DNA of 64,000 bases from Alkalicoccus daliensis (GTDB lineage Bacteria > Bacillota > Bacilli > Bacillales > Salisediminibacteriaceae): assembly GCF_900103955.1 (NCBI RefSeq), contig NZ_FNIL01000003.1:62001-126000 (forward strand). Direction: 5' to 3'. The position numbers and the translations under genes were made by a program. The first letter of the stretch is position 1. Every line of letters starts with the position of its first letter. Of this stretch, positions 1 to 46,768 are shown piece by piece. Under the pieces are notes generated by a model that was given only the letters and a program-made list of their open reading frames with translations, was not told the DNA's origin and ran no database searches.

Positions 1-193
1 GTTTTGGCAGATCCCCGCTGCCCCACGTATAGGTGCCCAGAATCAGACCATCAAGCTCCGGAATTAATTCAAGCGGGAAGTTTTCCAGTGAATACTTTAC
101 TACTGGAACTGCTTCTTCCTGCAGTTCCCCTTCAATCCAGTCTGCCAGCGTCGATGTATTTCCAGTCGAAGAATGATACACGAGCGCAATCAC
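1..193 (-). CDS. Flavodoxin-like protein, partial (cut by window start)
   Basis: Reading the minus strand from a GTG at 191-193 gives 64 codons that run off the window edge. The N-terminus carries the FMN phosphate-binding loop of flavodoxins (YHSSTGNT, residues 6-13), followed by GTYTWGSGDLP near residue 60, typical of the second FMN loop. The GTG overlaps the stop codon of nrdF (GTGA), so the two are translationally coupled. In class Ib ribonucleotide reductase operons a flavodoxin-like protein (NrdI) supplies the oxidant that assembles the Mn-tyrosyl cofactor of NrdF. That role is inferred from position; an ordinary flavodoxin electron donor is equally possible. The C-terminal part is not visible. 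Confidence 0.8.
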   Translation of the reverse strand, partial: MIALVYHSSTGNTSTLADWIEGELQEEAVPVVKYSLENFPLELIPELDGLILGTYTWGSGDLPK

Positions 194-1224
194 AGCTCAT
201 CAAATCCGTTTTTCTCTGTAACTTTGGAATAAGTCCGGGATTTCTGCTCAAAGAAATCCGATTTCGTATCATTCATCATTTCATCACTGAAGACGTGAAT
301 CCAAGGCATTGGATTGTCCCGTCCTTCATATAAATTCTGCAGGCCAAGCTGGCGCATTCTTTTATTTGCCAGATATTCCACATAGCCGTCGTACTCTTTT
401 AAATCGATACCTTCAATCCCGCTCAATATATAATGTGCCCATTCTTTCTCCAGCTGGACTGCTTTATCAATCGTGTCATAAATATACTGTTTATTTTCTT
501 CTGTCTGCAGTTCTTTATTTTCTTCCATCAGCAGTCTGATAAACTGCGAGACAAAGTAAGCATGCTGCATTTCATCCCGCTGAATATAGCTGATCATCGT
601 ACTGGTTTTCACCATTTTCTGCTGGCGCGCAAGGTGATAGAAAAATGCAAAGCCTGCGTAGAAGTATATCCCTTCTAAATTAATCGAGTTTACACAGAGC
701 TTAAACAGATTCTGAATAGATGGGTCTCTTCTGAACTCTTCATACGCATCCAGAATTAATGCATTTCTTTTTCTCACTAACGGATCATCTTTTGCCTCAT
801 TAAATCTTTTTGTCTGTTCTGTACTTGATACGAGAGAGCTCAGCACATAAGAATAGGATTCATTATGCACGGCTTCCTGCTGTGCAATTACAGCAAAGAT
901 TGCCTGGAAGCTTGGATCTGTCACATAGTCCATCACCTGCGCCATCGTCGGGGTCTGAAGACTGTCGAGTGAAGCAAGCTGTGTGTTGATTCGGAGAAAC
1001 ACATCCTTTTCCACTTCAGAAAGCTGGTCCCACTGCTTAATATCATCCTGCATATTAATTTCCTGGGCTTTCCAGAAATTAGAAAGAAGCGCCTGATACA
1101 CGTCATACATCTGTGGATAAGCAATGTCATTCCAATTTAAGATTCCTGATGCTTCCCCATTTACTATTCCGGTGGACTTGTTTGCAAACTGCGGTTGAAG
1201 CAGCTTCATTTTAGTTAAAGTCAT
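190..1224 (-). CDS. nrdF: Ribonucleoside-diphosphate reductase, beta subunit
   Basis: Small radical-generating subunit of class I ribonucleotide reductase, 344 aa, which makes the stable tyrosyl radical used by NrdE. The metal ligands and radical site are in the expected order: D87, E117 and H120 followed by Y124 (EAVHNESY, the E-x2-H-x3-Y spacing of NrdF), E184 (INLEG), then E218 and H221 (RDEMQH). The radical tyrosine is present, so this is not a tyrosine-less variant. The start is the ATG behind a GAGGAGG site rather than the longer frame that overlaps nrdE. It follows nrdE after 19 bp and overlaps the flavodoxin gene. It should be co-transcribed with nrdE under the cobalamin riboswitch. 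Confidence 0.93.
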   Translation of the reverse strand: MTLTKMKLLQPQFANKSTGIVNGEASGILNWNDIAYPQMYDVYQALLSNFWKAQEINMQDDIKQWDQLSEVEKDVFLRINTQLASLDSLQTPTMAQVMDYVTDPSFQAIFAVIAQQEAVHNESYSYVLSSLVSSTEQTKRFNEAKDDPLVRKRNALILDAYEEFRRDPSIQNLFKLCVNSINLEGIYFYAGFAFFYHLARQQKMVKTSTMISYIQRDEMQHAYFVSQFIRLLMEENKELQTEENKQYIYDTIDKAVQLEKEWAHYILSGIEGIDLKEYDGYVEYLANKRMRQLGLQNLYEGRDNPMPWIHVFSDEMMNDTKSDFFEQKSRTYSKVTEKNGFDEL

Positions 1225-3568: not shown

Positions 3569-3606
3569 ATAAAAAAACTCTTCCTTTTCTCCGGAAGAGT
3601 TTTCGT
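3569..3606 (-). terminator. Intrinsic terminator in the nrdE leader
   Basis: On the minus strand a 10-bp perfect stem (arms 3593-3602 and 3575-3584, AAACTCTTCC) is followed directly by a run of seven T. It sits between the cobalamin riboswitch and the nrdE start codon. This is the usual layout of a transcription-attenuating riboswitch: ligand binding would favour this hairpin and switch off nrdEF. Confidence 0.85.
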
Positions 3607-3639
3607 GATAAGAGCACAGCACAGAATTACAGGGAACAT

Positions 3640-3870
3640 CCCCTTCAACCCGCAGCCGCCTCTTATCCTCATTCCCCGAAGAATAGAAACTTGATAGAAT
3701 AATGGCAGGTCTCCTGGCTCATGCTTCTTTCTCAGCAGTTTCCCTTCCCATATCAGTGCCGTTAAGCTACTCTGATACAGTGGATCCAACTCCTTCGTCA
3801 GCACTTACAGTTGCGGGGACAGCTTCGGCTTTTACCGAATTCCCTTTTCAGCCGCTCTGCGGCACCAATT
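3640..3870 (-). ncRNA. Cobalamin (B12) riboswitch
   Basis: The minus strand contains the conserved blocks of a class I cobalamin aptamer in order. A GC-rich helix ends in GGTGCCGCAGAGCGGC (about 3851-3866) and runs into GAAAAGGGAA. Next comes the core CCCGCAACTGTAAGTGCTGA, then GATATGGGAAGG, and finally the B12 box AGCCAGGAGACCTGCC (3704-3719). A terminator hairpin follows at 3575-3602, then nrdE. B12 riboswitches normally repress transport or synthesis of B12 or B12-independent isoenzymes. Here the target is a B12-independent ribonucleotide reductase. Outer borders are approximate, since the peripheral helices were not folded. Confidence 0.93.
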
Positions 3871-3967
3871 ATTCCATGCATACTATATTTAGTTGTTTCT
3901 TAACAGACAGAAACTATATGTTGATTATATTACGTGTCTTCCCGAGATATTGCAAGATTAAACTATA

Positions 3968-5349: not shown

Positions 5350-5498
5350 ACTTTATCATAATCATGGACTGGATATACAGCAGCAAATAAAATGCATGTT
5401 TCCGGAAAGATATTCTAAGGTATTACTTTCGTAGATGAAAAAAAGACTTAAGAGATTTAGATTGATCCAGACAGCATGTGTTGAAAGAGGTGGTGCGC

Positions 5499-6599
5499 AT
5501 GGAAGCAGCGTCATATTTTTTCACTGATTATGAAACTTCAAGAAACCATTTTCAGACGAGGCTATTCGATATGAAAAAAAAGTGGCCGAAAGCTTCTCAT
5601 CAACAATGGTTCTCTGGAAATCAAAATGAAGATAATTCTACTGATATCCTGCTTGCAGACAGCTTAAAAAGTACTGAAAAGCTTCTTATCATCACCACCG
5701 GGTTACATGGAATAGAAGGATATGCAGGGAGCGCTGGATTAAACTTGTTTCTTGATGAAATTATGAATTATCTTAATCCTTCCACTACCGGTATTCGTTT
5801 AATTCATGCAGTAAATCCTTGGGGCATGAAACACTTTCGAAGAGTGACGAAAGGTAATATTGATTTGAACCGGAACTTCCATCGGATCTGGGCGGAAATC
5901 ACCGGACACTGCCCAGAGATTTATAGTAAAAATAATGAATTATTTCTTCTGGATAAATTAGAAAACGTTAATTCTGCAAAGATAGAAAAGAAATTAACTT
6001 TAGATTATTCTGAAAGCGAATTGAAAAAATTAAAAAATTTTCCTGAAGGACAACACCGGCACGCACATGGCTTATATTACGGCGGTATCACATTAAATAA
6101 AAAAGCGCAGCAACTAGCAATAGCTTTTTCTGAATGGGCTCAAAATTACGAAGAGATACTTCATATTGACCTTCATACAGGAGGAGGTCCCAAAAATAAG
6201 CTGACAATGATTTTTTCTGAAAATGACCCTCGAACCGAAGATCAGCTTCGCGCCGACATTCACTTTCCCCTTGTTTCAAAAGCTGAGGCTTTATTGTCAC
6301 TTGGGGCCTCCACCGCAAGACTGCAGGAATTTCTGCAGAATACTTATCCTGAAAAAAAGATTACTTCCTCGGTATTTGAAATGGGTACAGTAAAAGAAGA
6401 CCTCTCAGGATACAAATTTGTAAGCAGCACCATGATTCTGGAAAACTATTTTTATTGGAATGAGAACTTAACTGAAGAAGCAAAAAACAGATTTTTTCAT
6501 CTTTTTTATCCTGCATCCACTGACTGGCAGCATGCATATTTACGAGAATCCTATAAAGCTATGCTCGCCCTGCTTTCCTCTGAAGGGTTTATCAACTGA
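5499..6599 (+). CDS. DUF2817 family, M14-like zinc carboxypeptidase/deacylase
   Basis: 366 aa. Residues typical of the zinc-peptidase-like DUF2817 family are present: LHGIEGYAG (H-x2-E metal ligands, about residue 75), a downstream DLNRNF block (about residue 125) and LHIDLHTGGGP (about residue 225), which holds the third ligand histidine. SSVFEMGTV near the end holds the likely catalytic Glu. The ATG at 5499 follows GAGGTGG; a GTG/TTG cluster seven codons earlier is less well placed. There is no signal peptide, so it is probably cytoplasmic. It is monocistronic, converging on the ABC exporter genes. The natural substrate is not known. Confidence 0.8.
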   Translation: MEAASYFFTDYETSRNHFQTRLFDMKKKWPKASHQQWFSGNQNEDNSTDILLADSLKSTEKLLIITTGLHGIEGYAGSAGLNLFLDEIMNYLNPSTTGIRLIHAVNPWGMKHFRRVTKGNIDLNRNFHRIWAEITGHCPEIYSKNNELFLLDKLENVNSAKIEKKLTLDYSESELKKLKNFPEGQHRHAHGLYYGGITLNKKAQQLAIAFSEWAQNYEEILHIDLHTGGGPKNKLTMIFSENDPRTEDQLRADIHFPLVSKAEALLSLGASTARLQEFLQNTYPEKKITSSVFEMGTVKEDLSGYKFVSSTMILENYFYWNENLTEEAKNRFFHLFYPASTDWQHAYLRESYKAMLALLSSEGFIN

Positions 6600-44745: not shown

Positions 44746-45076
44746 ATGCAACGCCTCCTGTAATTTATGAATGAACAGCCATTCAATTTAAAGTAATTAT
44801 AGCTGACTTTTTGCATTATGTATAGATAAGACCCTAAAATAGATTTTGTACAATTCATCTGAAATAATAAGAATAACAGCAACTTTTTTGTTATCTAAAA
44901 GTTTTCACAGGCGGAATTCAGTTAGCGTAAAAAGGGAATCATCAGAAAAAGCATTCTTCAGCCTTTTATATTAACGAGCTGCTAATATATTTGTAACTTT
45001 TTTCTAGTATATGTGTGCAATTAATGATAAGCTGTTCTTTTGTGAAAAGTTATTTGAAGAATGGAGTCTGCTATTT
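44746..45076. other. Gene-free stretch upstream of the YczE-like gene
   Basis: AT-rich intergenic DNA between divergent genes. I see no RNA, repeat or clear operator. Confidence 0.5.
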
Positions 45077-45688
45077 ATGAAAAGATTTTATATAATCAGT
45101 ACCTTTTATTTACTCGGCCTTATTTCCGTATCGTTTGGTATCAGTTTAATTCTGCTTTCCGAACTGGGTGCCGGCCCGTGGGATGCATTTTTTGTAGCAC
45201 TGCAGCAGAATTTAGGACTTACCGTCGGGAGCTGGACATTTATTATTGGATTTATTCTTATATTAATCAATGGGCTGCTGTTAAAACAAAGACCTGATTT
45301 TTCTGCGTTAATTACAATGTTCCTAATTGGCAGCTTTCTTGATTTCTGGCTGATTTTTGTATTTATTGATATGGAGCTTTCCTTACTGACATTTCGTTTT
45401 CTTGCCCTTTTTGCCGGAATTTTCTGCATAGGTGCCGGAGTAGCCTCCTATATGCAGTCTAACTTTGCCCGCAATCCAATTGATCACTCTATGATTGTAT
45501 TTCATACGCTCACAGGAAAAAGCCTGGCGTTTTCTAAAACATTTTTGGAGGTTTCTGTCCTTTTGATTGCTTTAATTATCGGTGGACCTATCGGACTTGG
45601 CACAGTGATCATCGCCTTTGGAATTGGTCCCTTAATTCAATTTTTCCATAAGAGAGTTACCACTTTCCGTGTAAGACTTACTGGTTGA
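45077..45688 (+). CDS. YczE/YitT-type membrane protein
   Basis: 203 aa from the ATG preceded by GGAG (an in-frame start 22 codons earlier has no site). Five membrane helices. SFGISLILLSELGAGPWDAF in the first half is the signature of the YczE/YyaS family, polytopic membrane proteins of unknown function; one relative affects lipopeptide production in Bacillus. NFARNPIDHSMIVFH is in a loop. It has its own terminator. Confidence 0.8.
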   Translation: MKRFYIISTFYLLGLISVSFGISLILLSELGAGPWDAFFVALQQNLGLTVGSWTFIIGFILILINGLLLKQRPDFSALITMFLIGSFLDFWLIFVFIDMELSLLTFRFLALFAGIFCIGAGVASYMQSNFARNPIDHSMIVFHTLTGKSLAFSKTFLEVSVLLIALIIGGPIGLGTVIIAFGIGPLIQFFHKRVTTFRVRLTG

Positions 45689-45730: not shown

Positions 45731-45932
45731 TACTTCTTCGTTATATTCGTTCGGGCGAGTACGCCGCGGTAAAAATCAATAAAAGGAAGCTTCTCAACGA
45801 AAGCCCTACCTCTCTTTCATCCTCACAGTTCCTTGACTGCGCCGGTCTTACTAATCTTTCATGGATTCCAGAGTCTTTAATTCGCCTAAACGATGTTCCT
45901 GTTTCAAAAGCACTTTATATAGAATAGCTTAA

Positions 45933-46655
45933 TTACATTTTTTTGTCAACGTTTTTCTGTACCTGCCTTTGAATTTCGGCTGCCAGTGTCTGCAGATCGA
46001 CTTTCCCCTCTTGATGGATACGGATTGGTTTTCCGTAAATAATTTTCACATCCGCAGGTTTCATTATTCCGTTATTTGCTTCCATTAATTTATAGGAGCC
46101 GCTGATTGAAACAGGGACAATTGCTACTTTGGAAAGTGTGGCAAGCTTCAGGCTCCCTATTTTAAAATCATTAACCTCAGCACTTTTACTTCTCGTGCCT
46201 TCCGGAAACACCACCATGCTGTTCCCATCTTCTAATTTATTTGCAGCGGTTCTGATAGCCTGCACTGCTTTTCTTCTGTCTGCTCTGTCAATAAAGACAC
46301 AGCCCATCACCTCCATCCAGGGAGAAATAAGGGGAATTTTTTTTACTTCTATTTTTGAAAGAAACCCTATTTTTCTGCCGGCAGAAGAAAGCAAAATAGG
46401 TATGTCGAAGTTCCCCTGATGATTACTGACAAATAATACTGGTTCCTTTTGAGGGAGATATTCAAGACCTCTTATTTCCAACCTTGCGCCTGCAAGCTTT
46501 AACAAACGCCGTGACCAGCGCTCTGCTTTTCCTTTTACATAATCGCCAGCTTTATTTTTATCTTTTTTATACATCATTTCTGCTTTTTTTATACCGGGAG
46601 AAATAACCAATAAATATATCATAAAATAAACAAACCATAATCCAGTACGAACCAT
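45933..46655 (-). CDS. plsC: 1-acyl-sn-glycerol-3-phosphate acyltransferase
   Basis: 240 aa from the ATG behind GAAGGTTG. An N-terminal membrane helix precedes the acyltransferase motifs: NHQGNFD (H-x4-D), FIDRADRRKAVQ, FPEGTRSK and VPVSISGS. It makes phosphatidic acid from lysophosphatidate in the membrane. The length is typical. It is divergent from acyP. Confidence 0.9.
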   Translation of the reverse strand: MVRTGLWFVYFMIYLLVISPGIKKAEMMYKKDKNKAGDYVKGKAERWSRRLLKLAGARLEIRGLEYLPQKEPVLFVSNHQGNFDIPILLSSAGRKIGFLSKIEVKKIPLISPWMEVMGCVFIDRADRRKAVQAIRTAANKLEDGNSMVVFPEGTRSKSAEVNDFKIGSLKLATLSKVAIVPVSISGSYKLMEANNGIMKPADVKIIYGKPIRIHQEGKVDLQTLAAEIQRQVQKNVDKKM

Positions 46656-46768
46656 CTTATCACAACCTTCTTCATTTACTACTTCCATAGTATAAATAAA
46701 ACAGATGTGTAAAAACAACTATGGAAGGGAATTCAAATAATTACTTAAGTAAAAAGAGGAGGGGAAAT

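Follow-up and report, generated by a model that had tools for sequence, protein, structure and literature searches.

A cobalamin riboswitch with a terminator upstream of the class I ribonucleotide reductase operon of Alkalicoccus daliensis, and its co-occurrence with NrdJ in related genomes

The nrdAB operon of Alkalicoccus daliensis, encoding a class I ribonucleotide reductase, is preceded by a cobalamin riboswitch and an intrinsic terminator (Table 1; positions are those of the window, the whole 64,000-nucleotide stretch of DNA that was analyzed). We hold it very probable that this leader is a transcription-attenuating cobalamin riboswitch of the operon and that the B12-dependent class II reductase NrdJ takes over when nrdAB is shut down. 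The ligand is probably adenosylcobalamin, and nrdAB is probably turned off by B12, because the bacterium also has a B12-using reductase. The arrangement, a textbook case of cofactor-driven isozyme choice in an essential pathway, is already known and is very common among the relatives of A. daliensis. The modest additions made here are a correction of the enzyme class, the probable additional control by NrdR, and a count of the co-occurrence of the riboswitch with NrdJ.

Table 1. Features of the nrdAB operon and its leader in the window.
Feature	Position	Strand	Basis or detail
nrdB, class I beta subunit	190..1224	-	NF007184, PF00268
nrdA, class I ribonucleotide reductase alpha, 754 aa	1244..3508	-	NF006665, PF02867
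Intrinsic terminator, 12-bp stem, U-rich tail	3573..3604	-	terminator scan and fold
Outer antiterminator helix (predicted)	3587..3683	-	UUCUUCGGG 3683-3675 with UCCGGAGAA 3595-3587; energy prediction only
Antiterminator hairpin core (predicted)	3607..3667	-	GAUAAGAG 3667-3660 with CUCUUAUC 3614-3607; folds and comparative swap test
P13-L13 hairpin (putative)	3664..3685	-	UAUUCUU 3685-3679 with GAGGAUA 3670-3664, loop CGGGGAAU
Cobalamin riboswitch aptamer (RF00174)	3687..3885	-	covariance-model search; 108.2 bits, E 3.6e-26
NrdR-like box 2 (CAACTAAATATAGTAT)	3880..3895	-	overlaps 5' edge of aptamer match
NrdR-like box 1 (AATCAACATATAGTTT)	3911..3926	-	consensus scan
-10 element TAATAT, 17-bp spacer	3927..3932	-	by eye; probable
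-35 element TTGCAA	3950..3955	-	by eye; probable

The match to RF00174 (Rfam Cobalamin) is full length, covering all 189 model positions, and its score of 108.2 bits (gathering score 31.5) confirms the proposal of the first-pass annotation that a cobalamin riboswitch stands upstream of a class I reductase. The same aptamer was recovered in a whole-genome RF00174 search. Aligned in the match are the conserved core and the B12 box, GAGCCAGGAGACCUGCC. The terminator hairpin placed before the reductase gene by the same annotation is likewise present, as a 12-pair stem (4 of the pairs G-C) with a U-rich tail about 65 bases from the nrdA ATG; the 1.2 kb scanned held 4 terminator-like sites against a shuffle mean of 1.0. 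The predicted fold of the leader (3700-3555) has an energy of -48.4 kcal/mol and a z of -4.04; none of 200 shuffles was equally stable. The span originally given, 3569-3870, takes in the terminator and fixes its end to within a few bases, but it misses 15 bases at the 5' end of the aptamer.

By NCBI models, the operon enzyme is a class I NrdA/NrdB and not class Ib. NrdA scores 1191 bits with NF006665 (cut-off 1057) and 493.6 bits with PF02867, and NrdB scores 399.7 bits with NF007184 (cut-off 310) and 262.7 bits with PF00268. The class Ib label was rejected, as TIGR04170 reached 369 against a cut-off of 750 and TIGR04171 reached 161 against 355. The initial description as a class Ib-type nrdEF is thus replaced, and the name nrdA fits the first gene better than nrdE. 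At E up to 0.001, Pfam listed only PF00317 and PF02867 in NrdA, and PF00268 and a sub-threshold Rubrerythrin in NrdB, with no family for an ATP-cone (N-terminal, class Ia) in either protein. Among solved structures, the closest in sequence is 7agj_A (578 bits), the alpha subunit of a reductase. The two genes are adjacent, and the region beyond nrdB lies outside the window. Start codons were chosen from the sequence as ATG 3508 behind AGGAGGG for nrdA and ATG 1224 behind GGAGG for nrdB, the mechanical ORF of which begins at TTG 1272.

As the first-pass annotation had expected, a class II nrdJ is encoded elsewhere in the genome (3.78 Mb, 28 contigs, completeness 99.98). It lies at G000:C15:775409-777352, scores 584.6 bits with TIGR02504 (cut-off 399.95), and reads as an 855-aa ORF. 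A genome search with PF02867 returned two large subunits only, NrdA and this NrdJ, and the NRDD profile search found no NrdD. MetH (1262.5 bits) and a cobalamin adenosyltransferase (PF01923, 205.8 bits) are present, while CbiC, the single synthesis marker searched, was not found. This points to uptake of corrinoids and not to their synthesis. The genome carries three RF00174 riboswitches. In addition to the one at nrdA, the second precedes metE, encoding the other classic B12-independent isozyme, and the third precedes a periplasmic-binding-protein/FecCD-permease pair resembling btuF-btuC.

Unlike nrdAB, the A. daliensis nrdJ carries no cobalamin riboswitch that cmscan could detect in its upstream stretch (L005), the nrdJ leader having been checked in this genome only. 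In the same stretch, at about 3866-3840 (minus strand), between NrdR-like boxes and nrdJ, a small hairpin (GAAGCCTGA..TCAGGCTTC) leads into a U-rich tract. Of six same-genus genomes inspected, four (G000, G001, G003, G006) show a similar hairpin and two do not; the element could be an nrdJ attenuator.

To place the leader among relatives, we used 120 genomes, the A. daliensis genome included and the relatives chosen by the tool. Of the 119 relatives, 99 have an NrdA like that of A. daliensis (54-83% identity) and 9 have a class Ib-like gene (31-35% identity). A protein search gave no class I hit beyond NrdJ in the remaining 11 (G034, G038, G041, G051, G065, G067, G071, G078, G094, G095, G103), which were left out of the co-occurrence table. 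Unless they have reductases that this search missed, these 11 genomes may need B12 to make DNA precursors. TIGR02504 exceeded its cut-off in 102 of the 120 genomes, including that of A. daliensis. Seven others fall below it because their nrdJ is in pieces, and nrdJ is absent, defined as a best TIGR02504 E above 1e-70, from 11. Four genomes with a split nrdJ and a class I gene (G042, G061, G079, G086) were counted as NrdJ-positive. Group I introns (RF00028, over cut-off) lie beside nrdJ pieces at G037:C17:89648-90004, G089:C41:206165-206493 and G033:C15:128967-129272, and one lies between two nrdA pieces at G086:C53:135451-135729. Several other nrdJ reading frames are 950-1500 aa long, which suggests in-frame inserts such as inteins.

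For each of the 108 class I genes, we scanned about 1.3-1.5 kb before the match with cmscan (0.7 kb in one case, L122, at a contig end). A cobalamin riboswitch was found in 93 of the 97 relatives with NrdJ and in none of the 11 without it (Fisher p 4e-12, taking the genomes as independent, which they are not). Restricted to NrdA-type genes, the counts are 91/93 and 0/6 (p 2.5e-8, again with genomes taken as independent); for class Ib-like genes, they are 2/4 and 0/5. The 11 NrdJ-less genomes span 8 family labels and so do not amount to 11 independent events, and 5 of them have class Ib-like genes instead of an NrdA of the A. daliensis type. Four genomes with both NrdJ and a class I gene (G066, G107, G056, G029) had no riboswitch in the scanned stretch. 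A permissive search, run at E up to 1 on all 15 loci that lack a riboswitch, turned up no remnant of one. The distribution thus agrees with the original remark that such a switch is sensible only with NrdJ in the genome, while the description of the arrangement as uncommon does not hold for NrdJ-bearing relatives. The combination first proposed, class Ib with a riboswitch, does exist, in 2 of the 9 class Ib-like relatives: the nrd operons at L139 and L142 (G035, G081) have a cobalamin riboswitch 657 and 691 bases, respectively, before the class Ib-like match.

Comparison of the 94 riboswitch-bearing leaders (that of A. daliensis and 93 from relatives) supports the operation of a P13/antiterminator/terminator switch across the group. 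By a strict rule, 87 of the leaders have a terminator between the aptamer and the gene and 7 have none; the controls gave 2/94 on the antisense strand and 15/1880 in shuffled leaders. Directly behind the aptamer, the leaders share a hairpin with a CGGG-holding loop, here called P13-L13 after the nomenclature in PMC9600662. The 3' side of this hairpin (such as GAUGAAACGAU in many relatives) has two complementary partners, the 5' side of the hairpin (GUUUC) and the strand that immediately precedes the terminator (AUCGUUUCAUC). For the duplex between the P13/L13 region and the pre-terminator strand together with the terminator arm, we compared cognate with swapped partners. The predicted antiterminator duplex averaged -26.9 kcal/mol for cognate and -19.3 kcal/mol for swapped partners, and the cognate gave the stronger pairing in 80 of 87 leaders and, when swapping was confined to partners from different families, in 32 of 36 families (p 2e-6). 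The duplex uses at least three terminator-arm bases in 86 of 87 leaders. As partners were swapped between leaders, composition is controlled. The test was not blind, as its regions were picked from inspected linkers, where the P13 strand is repeated before the terminator, and were defined after a simpler test had failed. The simpler test, taking the best ungapped stem between the terminator 5' arm and everything upstream, showed no excess over shuffled arms (16.1 vs. 16.4 expected), with 40 of 87 leaders above expectation.

The antiterminator and P13 share at least four bases in 87 of 87 leaders, but this count has no control and was given no weight. For an L5-L13 kissing pair, swapping gave no support, the cognate being better than swapped partners in 14 of 37 families; the loops are much conserved, and so the swap test has little power here. 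The first L5 pattern caught 29 of the 94 leaders.

In the A. daliensis leader itself, pairing points to such a switch less clearly than in the group. The putative P13-L13 hairpin conforms to the other leaders in position and in its CGGG loop; its stem is absent from the unconstrained minimum free energy (MFE) fold and was imposed. Swapped partners would give a stronger P13 (mean -12.1) than the actual one (-9.7). The antiterminator core would be extended by pairing of 3659-3649 with 3625-3616. The cognate antiterminator pairing of this leader is 6.0 kcal/mol better than with partners from other families, and 20 of the 86 swapped partners pair as well as or better than the cognate. The full-length MFE fold shows the inner antiterminator hairpin side by side with the terminator. 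This suggests that the ON state is kinetic or relies on the outer helix, on which mutual exclusion would then depend. The outer helix takes up L13 and part of the terminator and is predicted in a transcript ending before the terminator 3' arm.

The putative promoter carries a second candidate control element, missing from the first-pass annotation. In an alignment of the A. daliensis leader with five same-genus leaders, the TTGC of the probable -35 element and a GTA just before or in the -10 element are invariant across the six sequences. This pair was not among the sites reported by the consensus scanner (8/12 matches by hand count, the scanner limit being 9), which offered AAGACA-16-TATAGT at 3940-3913 instead. 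Overlapping the presumed -10/start region are two boxes resembling those of NrdR, a dNTP-sensing repressor. With an NrdR consensus supplied by the analyst, the pair makes 24/32 matches, a score reached by none of 470 pooled shuffles. The boxes are 31 bp apart from start to start, leaving 15 bp between the 16-bp boxes, in agreement with the usual spacing of 15-16 bp given in PMC12051234. Of the 94 leaders, 82 have their best pair at a distance of 30-32 bp, compared with 42 of 470 shuffles. Upstream of nrdJ, the best pair is 30-33 bp apart in 21 of 21 genomes (A. daliensis and 20 chosen by the analyst), a count with no shuffle control. The A. daliensis genome encodes NrdR (222.8 bits). As such boxes precede both nrdAB and nrdJ, both reductases are probably regulated by NrdR.

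For the direction of the response, the action of NrdR and the physiological replacement by NrdJ, we infer the following scheme. When the coenzyme is scarce, the RNA behind the aptamer would fold into the antiterminator, with the 5' strand coming from the P13/L13 hairpin and the 3' strand reaching into the terminator 5' arm; RNA polymerase would then read into nrdAB, and dNTPs would be made by the B12-free class I enzyme. With the coenzyme bound, the aptamer would hold P13/L13 and block the antiterminator, the 12-bp terminator would form, nrdAB would be off, and the B12-dependent NrdJ would supply dNTPs. NrdR probably represses initiation of both nrdAB and nrdJ in addition.

It is very unlikely that the riboswitch is a relic, with an aptamer that no longer binds or switches and with nrdAB under NrdR alone. 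In its favor are the weak P13, an aptamer score that is the lowest among the three in the genome, and the presence of an NrdR gene and of paired NrdR-like boxes at the promoter. However, the match is full length and far above threshold with the core and B12 box conserved, the terminator and the covarying antiterminator are retained in same-genus leaders, and the riboswitch is missing exactly where NrdJ is missing. Slightly less probable still is that control is chiefly translational, or exerted via another corrinoid, with the terminator merely accessory. Translational control is at odds with a U-tailed terminator between aptamer and start codon, kept in most leaders; as to the corrinoid, ligand choice is not readable from sequence, and semiselective recognition of corrinoids is possible in cobalamin riboswitches (PMC9600662). 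That the aptamer belongs to another transcript, of an upstream or antisense gene, and is near nrdAB incidentally is hardly credible, as nothing beyond the long intergenic stretch favors it, all 94 riboswitches are on the strand of the gene, 139-906 bases before the NrdA match, and no minus-strand promoter-like site was listed between the terminator and nrdA.

The attenuation of nrdAB that we prefer has known counterparts. The riboswitch of Streptomyces coelicolor nrdABS is reportedly due to Borovok 2006. Adenosylcobalamin is reported to lower nrdABS transcription (PMC4991794), in line with the earlier statement that such switching is known in Streptomyces. There, too, a cobalamin riboswitch precedes a class I reductase and NrdJ is in the genome, although the host is an actinobacterium and the operon includes nrdS. 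In Propionibacterium acnes, the nrdAB 5' UTR has a cobalamin riboswitch and, by RNA-seq, transcription mostly ends before the first gene; NrdJ is again the B12-dependent partner, and nrd-boxes for NrdR occur at nrdAB and nrdRJ (PMC3848588). It differs in having a single nrd-box at nrdAB, where A. daliensis has a pair, and a further riboswitch at nrdDG, whereas no NrdD was detected in A. daliensis. In Priestia megaterium DSM319, of the Bacillaceae, cobalamin riboswitches belong to both metE and the class I reductase genes ('nrdEF'), and NrdJ and MetH are present (PMC8390425). Unlike A. daliensis, where CbiC was not found, P. megaterium makes cobalamin, and it has eight cobalamin riboswitches instead of three. 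B12-elements before delta-proteobacterial NrdDG are similar in concerning a B12-independent isozyme under proposed B12 repression with NrdJ in the genome, but the enzyme is class III rather than class I (PMC545781). A literature search on Bacillus halodurans found no papers.

The contrast between genomes with and without NrdJ is a quantitative test of the expectation that a B12 riboswitch is found on a B12-independent isozyme only beside a B12-dependent one. We give roughly even chances to the broader reading that, through the riboswitch, this B12-scavenging bacterium makes all its dNTPs with imported B12 whenever some is present, and that the riboswitch has been gained or lost with nrdJ across the Bacillota relatives. 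The commitment would follow from there being two reductases in all, one of them switched off. If joint gain and loss is true, an active class II enzyme could be predicted wherever the riboswitch is present.

Elsewhere in the window, an Rfam BsrC match (RF01410, 50.4 bits vs. 38) lies at 45789-45870 (plus strand), between a membrane-protein ORF at 45011-45688 and, on the other strand, an acyltransferase-like ORF at 45933-46718, both named by eye. In addition, 5478-6599 (plus strand) encodes a DUF2817 protein (PF10994, 195 bits), with a relation to the AstE/AspA fold via a sub-threshold or borderline match.
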